Assembly (NCBI GenBank): GCA_030693335.1
Contig: JAUYAU010000017.1
Coordinates: 1-64,000, forward strand
Reading direction: 5' to 3'
Source: Sulfuricurvum sp.
GTDB taxonomy: Bacteria; Campylobacterota; Campylobacteria; Campylobacterales; Sulfurimonadaceae
DNA: 64,000 bases
Part shown: positions 49,669 through 55,641 of the stretch, piece after piece
Numbering within the stretch: the first letter of the stretch is position 1
Layout: each line of letters opens with the position of its first letter
Made by a program: the position numbers and the translations under genes
The notes under the pieces: model-generated
The model's input: the letters and a program-made list of their open reading frames with translations, nothing else
Databases searched by the model: none
Told to the model about the DNA's origin: nothing

Positions 49669-50433
49669 ATGGAATGGGCGCAATTGTTTAGCGAGGGACG
49701 AACAGCAGCTTTTATTTTACTTTTTGTGCGATTCGGTTCTTTGTTTATGGCCGTTCCTATTTTTTCCCATGCTAACATACCTATGTCACTCAAAGCTGCT
49801 ATGGCATTTTTTTTTACGGTGGTCTTTTATGATTCCTTGCCGGTGTTGCAAATTCCCACAGATGCACTGACGATGAGCGTCGCTATTTTGGGTGAGATGC
49901 TGTTCGGATTAGCGGTGGGAATCATTTTACAGCTAGCTTATCATGTTATTACCTTCGCAGGGGGACAGATATCTTTTATGATGGGCTTTTCACTCGCATC
50001 GGCGATTGATCCACAATCGGGTGTATCGATGCCAATTGTAAGTCAGTTCTTGGCTCTTGTTGCGTTGATGATATTGCTTGCATTGGATTTGCATCATTGG
50101 ATTATACTATTGGCTTCTGCATCAATTGCAACCGTTCCCTTGGGCGGATTTATGGTTACCCCTGAATTATTTCAATATATCATGCACGGAATGTTAAACA
50201 TGTTTGTGGTTGGATTTATGATAGCCTTTCCTATAACCGCACTCTCTATGCTGGCAGATGTTATTTTTGGAATGCTTATGAAAACCATGCCTCAGTTTAA
50301 CTTATTGGTTATTGGTATGCCTATTAAAATTGGAGTCGCATTTTTAGTACTTATGGCAACTCTGGCAGCCACGATGATGATTGTTGCTTCGCAGATGCAA
50401 AGTGCCTATAACTTTTTGGAAAAGTTACTGTAA
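49669..50433 (+). CDS. fliR: Flagellar export apparatus protein FliR
   Basis: A 254-aa FliR with several membrane helices (FILLFVRFGSLFMAVPIF; ALVALMILLALDLHHWIILL) and the C-terminal LLVIGMPIKIGVAFLVLM helix. FliR forms the export gate with FliP and FliQ. It starts directly after the ABC ATPase gene, and its end overlaps the convergent PLD-like gene by 9 nt. Confidence 0.96.
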   Translation: MEWAQLFSEGRTAAFILLFVRFGSLFMAVPIFSHANIPMSLKAAMAFFFTVVFYDSLPVLQIPTDALTMSVAILGEMLFGLAVGIILQLAYHVITFAGGQISFMMGFSLASAIDPQSGVSMPIVSQFLALVALMILLALDLHHWIILLASASIATVPLGGFMVTPELFQYIMHGMLNMFVVGFMIAFPITALSMLADVIFGMLMKTMPQFNLLVIGMPIKIGVAFLVLMATLAATMMIVASQMQSAYNFLEKLL

Positions 50434-50907
50434 GTAAGATTTGGAACGCTTTAGTAAGGTAGTAATTTGTTTTTGTGCTGCAAGCACCAGTAAAGATTCA
50501 TCGCTGCACCATACACTTGAAACATTCTCGCTTAAACTTTTTTCATTAAGTGATCCGGATAAATGACAGACAAGGCTGTTGTCAATCAGAATAAGGGTGT
50601 CAGTCAGGTCACGCGGCGTATAACTGTAAAGAGTTACACCTTCATACGCAATAAAGCGTAGAGCGTCTCCTGATGGCTTGGAAACAATAAGGTTAAGATG
50701 TATTCCGTGAGAAATTGAACGCAGTATGCTTTTACTCAATGAGGGATAGTTTAAGGATGGTGTGAGAATAATAATCTCTTTTTGGCTGTTTTTGAGATGT
50801 TTTTGAAGATAATGATTAAAACGGCTCCCTTCATCCGGGAGTAAAAATGGGAAAATGTTAGCATTTGCAATGGTAATTGTAAAAAGTAGGGCGATTAGTT
50901 TTATCAT
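50425..50907 (-). CDS. Secreted PLD-like protein with degenerate HKD motif
   Basis: A 160-aa protein with a signal peptide (MIKLIALLFTITIANANIF). The fold resembles one half of a phospholipase D domain: KNSQKEIIILTPSLNYP and GIHLNLIVSKPSG, then TLILIDNSLVCHLSGSLNEKS, which keeps the IDN...GS.N pattern of PLD enzymes. The catalytic HxK is not seen (DLTD replaces it), so catalysis is doubtful. It lies on the opposite strand between fliR and the acidic receiver gene. Confidence 0.65.
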   Translation of the reverse strand: MIKLIALLFTITIANANIFPFLLPDEGSRFNHYLQKHLKNSQKEIIILTPSLNYPSLSKSILRSISHGIHLNLIVSKPSGDALRFIAYEGVTLYSYTPRDLTDTLILIDNSLVCHLSGSLNEKSLSENVSSVWCSDESLLVLAAQKQITTLLKRSKSYLQ

Positions 50908-50984: not shown

Positions 50985-52394
50985 ATGAAAATTTTGTTGT
51001 TGAATGATAATCCGGTTGTACGCAAACTAGTAGCGTTAAGTGCGCAAAAAACAAAAGATGAATTGAGTGTTATTTGGTCTGTGGATGAAGTTGAGGGTGA
51101 CTCTTATGATTTGCTGATAGTTGATGATGCTCATTACAGTGACGAATCGATGGCTGCATTGAGAGATAAGATTCAGTATAAAACATCCCTTTTGATGGCC
51201 ACACGCGGAAATTCAACACCTAGCGGATTTGAGAAAGTCATCAATAAGCCTTTTTTGCCAACAGACTTGGTTGATTTATTTTCCCAAATTGATAAAGATC
51301 TATCGTCATCAGCACCAAAAGCTGCTGAAGAAAAGGGCAAAGCTATTGTCTTGGATGATGTGATTGAAAAAGAATTAGCAGAAAACGAAAACTTTGATAC
51401 GATTAATATAGACGAAGATCTGAATTTTGATGATTTTGATATTGATGTAGAAGATGAGATCGAAGCAGCGGTAAAAACAAATGTACTGGATCATGAAGAA
51501 GTCCAAGAACTACAAGACCTTCTTGATGATACGGATAATTTTGATATTGATGATGAGATAACAGACACAAATCATATTGTCAGTAATGATGATTTGCTCG
51601 AATCGTTAGATGATGACATTTTGCAGACTCTTGAAACTGAAAACTCAATTGTGAATGCGGAAAATGATTTGCAAGAAGTAATGGAGGAATTTGATTTTGA
51701 TGAAGAACTGTTCGCACAAGAAGAAGAGCCAGTAAAGGCAATAGAAGAAGCTTTTGAAGATGAAGATTTATTAGGATCTTTAGATGAAGAATTTGCTGAG
51801 TTGGCCGAAGTAAGTGACGGGGAAGACACAGCGGCTGATGAGACAGAGACAACAGTTGATGAAGCGTTGGATGATTTGGATGCGCTTTTATTGGATGATT
51901 TAGGTATGATGGATGATGAAGAGCTCTCCGCTTTGGAATCAACCCATGATGCATTAAGTGATGATGAGTTTGGTGAACTGGAACAGCAGATACAAGAAGC
52001 GGTTGAAGAACTTGGATTTGAAGATTTAGAGCAAGGACTAGATGAAATTGAGATGGAAGAGTTAAGCAGCTTCGAGGGGCTTGCTGATCTTGACAGTTTA
52101 AGCGAAAGAGATATAAAGCTTGCCATTGGCGAAGAAGTAGAAGAGGTTGAAACAGACACGGAAATGTTAAGTGAAGCAATAGAAGAATCTTCCATGCTTG
52201 AGTTGGAAGATGAGCTTGAAAATATCGATACAGAGCTAATAAAAGGATCGGAAGAAGAACTTCATCATGGAACCCCGGCTGAGGGGATAGATGCACTCCA
52301 AGCTCTTCTTAAAGCGCTCTCTAACGAAGAAGTATCGAAAACACTTAAGGGGCTTAGCATTAATATCAATATCAATTTCGGGAATGAGAAGTGA
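50985..52394 (+). CDS. Acidic receiver-domain protein
   Basis: A 469-aa protein. Residues 1-105 read as a response-regulator receiver fold: N7/D8 after the first strand, Asp47 in LLIVDDAHYS at the phospho-acceptor place, Thr73 in LLMATRG and Lys88-Pro89 in VINKPFLPTDL. Residues about 110-440 are extremely rich in Asp and Glu with repeated short DDEL-like units and no evident fold. A C-terminal motif [11 protein letters not shown] ends the protein. Between fliR and gmk, Campylobacter also encodes a highly acidic protein (near Cj1178), so the position is conserved. It overlaps gmk by 4 nt. Function unknown. Confidence 0.75.
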   Translation: MKILLLNDNPVVRKLVALSAQKTKDELSVIWSVDEVEGDSYDLLIVDDAHYSDESMAALRDKIQYKTSLLMATRGNSTPSGFEKVINKPFLPTDLVDLFSQIDKDLSSSAPKAAEEKGKAIVLDDVIEKELAENENFDTINIDEDLNFDDFDIDVEDEIEAAVKTNVLDHEEVQELQDLLDDTDNFDIDDEITDTNHIVSNDDLLESLDDDILQTLETENSIVNAENDLQEVMEEFDFDEELFAQEEEPVKAIEEAFEDEDLLGSLDEEFAELAEVSDGEDTAADETETTVDEALDDLDALLLDDLGMMDDEELSALESTHDALSDDEFGELEQQIQEAVEELGFEDLEQGLDEIEMEELSSFEGLADLDSLSERDIKLAIGEEVEEVETDTEMLSEAIEESSMLELEDELENIDTELIKGSEEELHHGTPAEGIDALQALLKALSNEEVSKTLKGLSINININFGNEK

Positions 52395-53014
52395 ATAAAG
52401 AAAGTGGTGCTATTTTAGTTCTATCGGGGCCTAGTGGTGCTGGAAAAAGTTCTTTGATCAATAAAATTATAAAAGATATCGGACCAACTTATTTTTCAAT
52501 TTCTACGACTACGCGTGCAATGCGTGAGGGCGAAATAGATGGTGTTGACTACCATTTTGTAAGCGAAGAGGTATTTGCGCAAGATATCGAAGCAGAGATG
52601 TTTCTGGAATATGCGGTTGTTCATGGAAATCACTATGGCACTTCGTTGGGACCAGTAAAAACAGCCCTGAAAGAGGGAAAGCTTGTTATTTTTGACATTG
52701 ATGTACAAGGTAATGATGCAGTACAAAATAGATTGGGAGATATTACAACGTCAGTGTTTATCACGACCCCTACGCTGAAGGAATTGAATAAAAGACTTGT
52801 GAACCGTTCAACGGACAGTGATGAAGTTATTGCGAATCGTTTAGAAATGGCCAAGCGAGAAGTTCAGCGTATTAGCGAGTACGATTATTTAATTGTGAAT
52901 GATGATTTGGATGAAGCAGCGGAGATTTTGGTGTCCATTGCAAAAGCCGCACGGATGAAAATTCCAACCTTGCAGATAAATGAATTTATTCAAATGTGGG
53001 AAGCACAAGCCTAG
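52391..53014 (+). CDS. gmk: Guanylate kinase
   Basis: A 207-aa GMP kinase. P-loop [13 protein letters not shown] is near residues 9-21, and [20 protein letters not shown] binds GMP. It starts at GTG 52391, overlapping the stop of the acidic gene (GTGA). Confidence 0.96.
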
Positions 53015-54942: not shown

Positions 54943-55641
54943 TTACCCCAATAAACGTCCAATGGATTCACGTAAAAACTGTGTCTGATGCGCTGATGCC
55001 AGCACAGATGTATCCAAGATTCTGTTACTGCTTTGGAAATCGTTGATCGCTTTTGCCATATCAGTATCGGCGATTTGGCTTTTTGCCGCAGATGTTTGTG
55101 TGATTTGATTTAGTAACGAATTAGCCTGACTGATATAGTTATTGGCAACGGCACCAAGATCGCTTTGCGCAGAGGACAATGTGTCCCTGTACGATAAAAT
55201 TGCATCTTGGTTGTCCAGTGTAAGATTTTTTGGTGAGACACTGTTATCAAGTAGAGGCTTTCCATTGTAAGAGGTCGTAGCTATAATATCCTGCATCGAT
55301 GTTTGTGTACGTTGAAATTCAGCTTGCAGTGCTTGTTGGTCCAGAGTATTTAAGCTCGCACTGTTGCTGCGAACACTTAGATCATTAAGCTTCTGAGCTG
55401 ACTCAGAAAGGCTAGAGAGTGCTCCATCAGTAATTTGGGTCATCCCTATACTGTCATTCGTATTCATTAACTCTTGAGCATAGGTGTTAATTTGACTTTC
55501 CATCTGAGAAGCAATGCTGCGTGAGGCACTGTCTTCCATACTAAGTTGCAGTCCGGCTGCAATTTTGTCCAGAGTTTTATCTCTCTTTGTGCTTTGCTCG
55601 TTCATTTGAGGAAGAGCTTGATACTGTGTATTGAGTTGCAT
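54943..55641 (-). CDS. Short flagellin-like protein
   Basis: A 232-aa protein built only from flagellin D0/D1-like segments. The N terminus (MQLNTQYQALPQMNE, then LDKIAAGLQLSMEDSASRSIASQM) parallels the N-terminal helix and LSSGLRINSAxDDAA region of flagellins. The C terminus (DTDMAKAINDFQSSNRILDTS and QFLRESIGRLLG) parallels the flagellin C-terminal D0 helix. The variable D2/D3 domain is absent. It is much shorter than typical flagellins and diverged at conserved positions, so it may be a minor filament or junction component. A sigma-54-like promoter lies 34 nt upstream. Confidence 0.8.
   Translation of the reverse strand: MQLNTQYQALPQMNEQSTKRDKTLDKIAAGLQLSMEDSASRSIASQMESQINTYAQELMNTNDSIGMTQITDGALSSLSESAQKLNDLSVRSNSASLNTLDQQALQAEFQRTQTSMQDIIATTSYNGKPLLDNSVSPKNLTLDNQDAILSYRDTLSSAQSDLGAVANNYISQANSLLNQITQTSAAKSQIADTDMAKAINDFQSSNRILDTSVLASAHQTQFLRESIGRLLG

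Follow-up and report, generated by a model that had tools for sequence, protein, structure and literature searches.

ChePep with two conserved ends on an acidic linker and its retention in Campylobacterota lacking flagella and chemotaxis

Introduction

HP0322 of Helicobacter pylori, formerly called 'poly E-rich protein', has been renamed ChePep (PMC6501431, PMC3561388). In Campylobacter jejuni, ChePep corresponds to CJJ81176_1193, and the mutant shows 120 reversals/min compared to 95 in the wild type (PMC9665402). It has been reported that H. pylori without ChePep has a clockwise bias and that ChePep helps to bring CheZ to the poles (PMC11237671). The polar localization of CheZ in H. pylori is dependent on ChePep and independent of CheA (PMC7750401). 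Transposon insertions in C. jejuni chePep reduced the colonization of mice (PMC5438104). In published work, ChePep has been described in Campylobacterota only.

In this study, we analysed a chePep gene in a window of Sulfuricurvum sp. DNA, that is, the whole stretch of 64,000 nucleotides, and compared it with related loci of the phylum. The original prediction for this gene had stated that it has no described role. This was wrong, as the gene is chePep, whose role in chemotaxis is published for H. pylori and C. jejuni. The gene itself is therefore not new; what deserves further work is that it is retained under selection.

Results

Identity and distribution of the gene

The features of the locus are given in Table 1. 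The full-length window protein gave nothing useful against Pfam and NCBIfam. By sequence comparison, the gene is the orthologue of ChePep, HP0322 in H. pylori and CJJ81176_1193 in C. jejuni. The link to HP0322 was drawn because of a similar Helicobacter cluster, named congeners such as H. cetorum, and the published names. Loci of the Helicobacter-like cluster have the N-domain, the acidic tail and the C-terminal peptide as in the window ChePep. Profile A2 picked up both Helicobacter-like and Campylobacter-like loci, which have PFLP and D47 in common, and a genome scan with one query matched named Helicobacter, Sulfurovum, Sulfurimonas and Sulfuricurvum loci. A literature search on Cj1178c gave no match. 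Cj0251c, which was found through the term 'highly acidic protein' in Campylobacter, was rejected as a different gene where the locus tag is given.

N-domain relatives were found in 58 of 60 related genomes. G019 and G021 appear without chePep because their contigs end there, with fliR at the contig edge. A phylum-wide N-domain search of 298 genomes, each at least 95% complete, gave matches in all 298, at least two of which are weak and probably false. The weak match in G135 belongs to a different gene, and this genome probably has no orthologue. G327 gave no N-domain match at a tighter cut-off, and its weak match is probably no orthologue either.

Table 1. Coordinates of chePep, its parts and its neighbours in the window
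Feature	Position	Strand	Evidence
chePep orthologue, complete CDS	50985..52394	+	start ATG 50985, stop TGA 52394 (ORF reading); ORF of 469 aa, pI 4.05; orthologues upstream of gmk order- and phylum-wide; charge
Atypical (pseudo-)receiver domain, residues 1-108	50985..51308	+	AlphaFold, Foldseek, HMM against PDB receivers
N7-D8, receiver acidic-pair position	51003..51008	+	D8 invariant in window genus, replaced in most other genera
D47, receiver phospho-acceptor position	51123..51125	+	alignment counts
T73, receiver switch Thr position	51201..51203	+	alignment counts
K88-PFLP, family signature after beta5	51246..51260	+	PFLP invariant, K88 >90% in A1 and A2
Acidic, mostly disordered linker, residues 109-440	51309..52304	+	composition; pLDDT mostly <60; length varies between lineages
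Conserved short helical linker motif VLDHEEVQELQDLL, residues 167-180	51483..51524	+	pattern counts against shuffled tails
Conserved C-terminal element, residues 441-469	52305..52391	+	amphipathic helices, then alternating IxIxIxF segment
gmk, near-constant downstream neighbour	52391..53014	+	Pfam/NCBIfam, synteny, junction sequence
fliR, adjacent upstream gene in part of the lineages	49669..50433	+	TIGR01400; missing or elsewhere in others
NucT/phospholipase-D-like ORF	50425..50907	-	NCBIfam NucT E 1.4e-5, below cut-off
232-aa flagellin	54943..55641	-	Flagellin_N 9.6e-16, Flagellin_C 2.3e-8

The N-terminal receiver-like domain

A receiver fold had been predicted for the N-terminal part of the protein. 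AlphaFold modelled residues 1-108 with a pLDDT of about 96, and Foldseek matched them to PDB receivers with a best E of 3.2e-5, a probability of 1.00 and a target-normalised TM of 0.6-0.75. A profile of 33 orthologues reached PDB receiver chains at E 7e-6. Structure prediction and Foldseek thus agree with the predicted fold. In the AlphaFold model, alpha4 is absent and a loop is found in its place. Pfam Response_reg (PF00072) did not match the window protein, and 5 of 33 members matched it weakly, with a best E of 0.013.

The window protein retains N7, D8, D47, T73 and K88, and the original prediction had placed D47, T73 and K88 at the right residues. As it requires, D47 is also conserved in orthologues: it is invariant in the 33 aligned family representatives (A2) and present in 127 of 130 proteins of a larger set, of which 128 have K88. 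Since the 130 sequences were extracted by the PFLP signature, the PFLP column of this set is not independent; A1 and A2 were selected without PFLP. Position 73 is T in 34 of 36 sequences of the window genus compared to 2 of 94 elsewhere, where S occurs in 25. All 36 sequences of the window genus and 11 of the 94 others have D as the second residue of the acidic pair; Q, S, K, R, E, T and N are the usual residues outside the genus. The pair for Mg2+ is N-x in most genera compared to N-D in the window. These results suggest that most of the family consists of pseudo-receivers without a phosphorylation cycle and that the domain is probably a protein-binding module. Phosphorylation may still occur in the window genus because a near-complete receiver site is kept there.

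The acidic linker and the C-terminal element

Residues 106-440 contain 37.6% D/E and 2.7% K/R, and the net charge of the tail is -117. The tail is thus strongly acidic, although its description as 'nearly all acidic' was overstated. The strict pattern LDxxE(I/V)xxIxxLL of the linker motif was present in 59 of 130 proteins, compared to 0.68 expected from shuffled tails; these are not 59 independent events, because many of the 130 proteins are closely related. Linker residue D169 is conserved in more than 90% of A1, and the motif is also found in flagella-less genomes.

The C-terminal part of about 36 residues starts as two short helices and continues as an alternating I/L segment, and its motif was seen across genera. 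L454, I461, I463 and F465 are each conserved in more than 90% of A1, and the INININF motif foreseen at this end occupies residues 459-465. In the AlphaFold model of a minimal orthologue of 149 aa, the C-terminal strand was not docked on the receiver and had no partner within the chain. It may therefore bind another protein or another copy of ChePep.

Short versions of about 140-300 aa were found in family f6, G038 and G047, excluding the truncated copy of G249. The idea that tail length goes with flagella was dropped as a rule, since long tails occur in G003 (472 aa) and in several Campylobacter-like genomes without flagella.

Gene neighbourhood

chePep is directly upstream of gmk almost everywhere, and in the window the GTG start of gmk overlaps the chePep stop (GTGA). 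The window gmk shares 82% identity with that of a named Sulfuricurvum MAG, in line with a Sulfuricurvum-like genome. In many flagellated families, fliR is located elsewhere. The gene had been predicted to be conserved in position between fliR and gmk; this holds for gmk, but fliR is adjacent in some families only. The supposed link to the flagellar export gene did not survive the comparison, since chePep stays beside gmk even in genomes that carry fliR at another place or have lost the flagellum altogether. These results indicate that the adjacency of fliR is incidental.

The NucT/phospholipase-D-like ORF of the window is antisense between fliR and chePep. In Helicobacter-like loci, a NucT ORF is immediately upstream of chePep. 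The 232-aa flagellin encoded in the window has helical regions at both termini with hardly any central domain between them, and it is possibly FlaC-like.

Retention of chePep without flagella and chemotaxis

FliR was missing in 35 of the 298 phylum genomes and in G003, G038 and G047, which were examined separately. Thirty-six genomes have neither FliR nor any CheW domain. As CheA and CheV also carry CheW domains, the absence of CheW marks the whole chemosensory core. The 36 genomes are 19 of family f6, nine of one Campylobacter-like genus, and G236, G331, G295, G003, G038, G047, G135 and G261. chePep was found beside gmk with N-domain evidence in 32 of them, and the C-terminal motif was clear in nearly all of these 32 loci and diverged in G187. 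Four Campylobacter-like loci start inside chePep, and their N-domain evidence comes from the phylum-wide search, with additional evidence for G078. In G249 the N-domain is present and gmk is not nearby. The N-domain match of G261 lies away from gmk and is a candidate only, and in G327 gmk itself was not found. Family f6 includes the single-contig genomes G108, G264, G268 and G307.

The window genome encodes remote-type CheZ and CheW proteins. The Pfam CheZ model largely fails to recognise the remote-type CheZ of Campylobacterota, and the CheZ of the genus was therefore used as query. In the flagella-less set tested, remote-type CheZ was absent from f6, G038 and G047, and G003 gave only a partial match of 71 residues. 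The remote-type CheZ of the window genus (L089:700-1428, G019) begins with a FliM/CheY-binding-like peptide, MTQEELDALMNG.

Two genomes show the loss at the locus itself. In G003 (L059, L058), which belongs to the window genus, the ABC gene is followed by the NucT-like ORF with a clean loss of fliR from between them; chePep is intact, and CheW is absent from this genome. In G135 (L186), both fliR and chePep are gone between the ABC gene and gmk, and an antisense NucT-like frame remains; this is the one verified loss of chePep. Since G135 has neither FliR nor CheW, an additional role of ChePep would have been dispensable at least once.

We then compared chePep between pairs of flagella-less genomes with unsaturated dS. 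By simple pairwise counts, with no codon model, dN/dS was 0.12-0.27 for the N-domain and 0-0.19 for the C-terminal 36 residues. Because dN/dS is low, the ChePep protein sequence is constrained in flagella-less lineages. Also retained in these lineages are D47 and PFLP of the N-domain, together with the motifs of the linker and the C-terminus.

A published survey reports that Sulfurovum/Nitratifractor and flagella-less Campylobacter-type lineages lost all chemosensory genes, and in the text searched the word ChePep occurs only in the reference list (PMC9321776). By gene content, our groups f6 and g34 would be these lineages. This match is supported because named Sulfurovum loci carry chePep, with gmk adjacent in L151. 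A partial literature search gave no report of chePep retention without flagella, although the 2011 paper (Howitt) could have noted it. The retention of chePep under selection after the loss of flagella and chemotaxis appears to be a new observation of this study.

Discussion

Our reading of ChePep is based on the orthology, fold, residue pattern, gene position, retention and selection observed here. Very probably, ChePep carries two conserved ends on an acidic linker and concentrates CheZ at the pole, which would be one task of a general scaffold. The two ends are an atypical receiver domain and, at the C-terminus, a peptide of helix plus strand; the linker between them is long, acidic and disordered and bears the short conserved LDxxE(I/V)xxIxxLL helix. 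CheZ recruitment, over-reversal and the colonization defect come from the work of others on H. pylori or C. jejuni, and ChePep probably acts alike in the window species by analogy. In this flagellated organism, ChePep would most likely be located at the pole, where it would bind and concentrate remote-type CheZ as in H. pylori. Polar CheZ would keep CheY-P low near the motors, and reversals would be held in check. Since chePep is under purifying selection in lineages without FliR, CheW and, where tested, CheZ, the scaffold is probably a more general one, with CheZ as one of its clients.

The original prediction had proposed a phospho-switched scaffold. The scaffold part fits the published recruitment of CheZ. 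In such a switch, CheA or another kinase would phosphorylate D47 and thereby shift the affinity of the receiver for CheZ or other partners. The receiver fold, the almost invariant D47 and K88, and the additional N7, D8 and T73 of the window genus are consistent with this. However, most genera have lost T73 and the acidic residue that binds Mg, alpha4 is replaced by a loop in the AlphaFold model, and D47 is retained in lineages without any CheW domain. With D8 and T73 nearly confined to one genus, a family-wide switch is unlikely, and we consider a receiver that is not phosphorylated in most of the family the better reading.

Another possibility is a role linked to FliR in flagellar export or assembly, such as that of a chaperone for basic partners, in keeping with the strongly acidic tail and with fliR being adjacent in the window genus and several other genera. 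This appears extremely improbable: gmk stays adjacent in many flagellated families whose fliR is elsewhere, chePep persists in genomes without fliR, and the published phenotype is one of direction control. In flagella-less lineages, chePep could also be a mere relic that is kept for translational coupling to gmk through the stop/start overlap. The overlap exists in the window and the two genes are adjacent almost everywhere, but G135 lost chePep and yet kept gmk. Coupling would also leave the low dN/dS of both the N-domain and the C-terminus, and the persistence of D47, PFLP and both motifs, without an account, and we give the relic explanation very little weight.

ChePep probably has a function beyond chemotaxis throughout the phylum, perhaps as a general polar scaffold. 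We lean slightly towards the view that ChePep is not primarily chemotactic. In this view, ChePep would serve throughout Campylobacterota as a scaffold, its main client would belong to a system other than motility, for instance one located at the pole or related to division, and CheZ recruitment would be one task. This would account for the purifying selection that persists once flagella, chemoreceptor coupling and CheZ have been lost. The label of chemotaxis regulator is incomplete for ChePep, as constrained orthologues are found in Sulfurovum-like and Campylobacter gracilis-like lineages that are neither motile nor chemotactic. If true, a second role would account for the near-universality of chePep in the phylum and for its lasting adjacency to gmk. 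The flagella-less lineages offer natural short versions of ChePep, in which this role can be studied free of chemotaxis.

HubP/FimV, acidic polar landmark proteins from another phylum, have a long acidic low-complexity region and recruit clients to the pole. The likeness of ChePep to them is one of description, with no homology claimed, and unlike them ChePep showed no LysM, transmembrane or TPR parts. CikA, HP1043, ChxR and the N-domains of TadZ/CpaE, which were among the Foldseek matches of the N-domain, have a receiver fold with an incomplete phosphorylation site. In contrast to these proteins, ChePep keeps D47 and K88 and bears an acidic linker, with no DNA-binding or ATPase output domain. 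The ChePep proteins of H. pylori and C. jejuni share with the window protein the receiver-like N-domain with PFLP, the acidic linker, the C-terminal helix with the alternating I/L strand, and gmk as the neighbour. Upstream of chePep, the window has fliR and the antisense NucT-like ORF; at this place in Helicobacter-like loci lie NucT and an ORF of the outer-membrane type. In the receiver site, the window genus differs from ChePep of H. pylori and C. jejuni in having retained D8 and T73.
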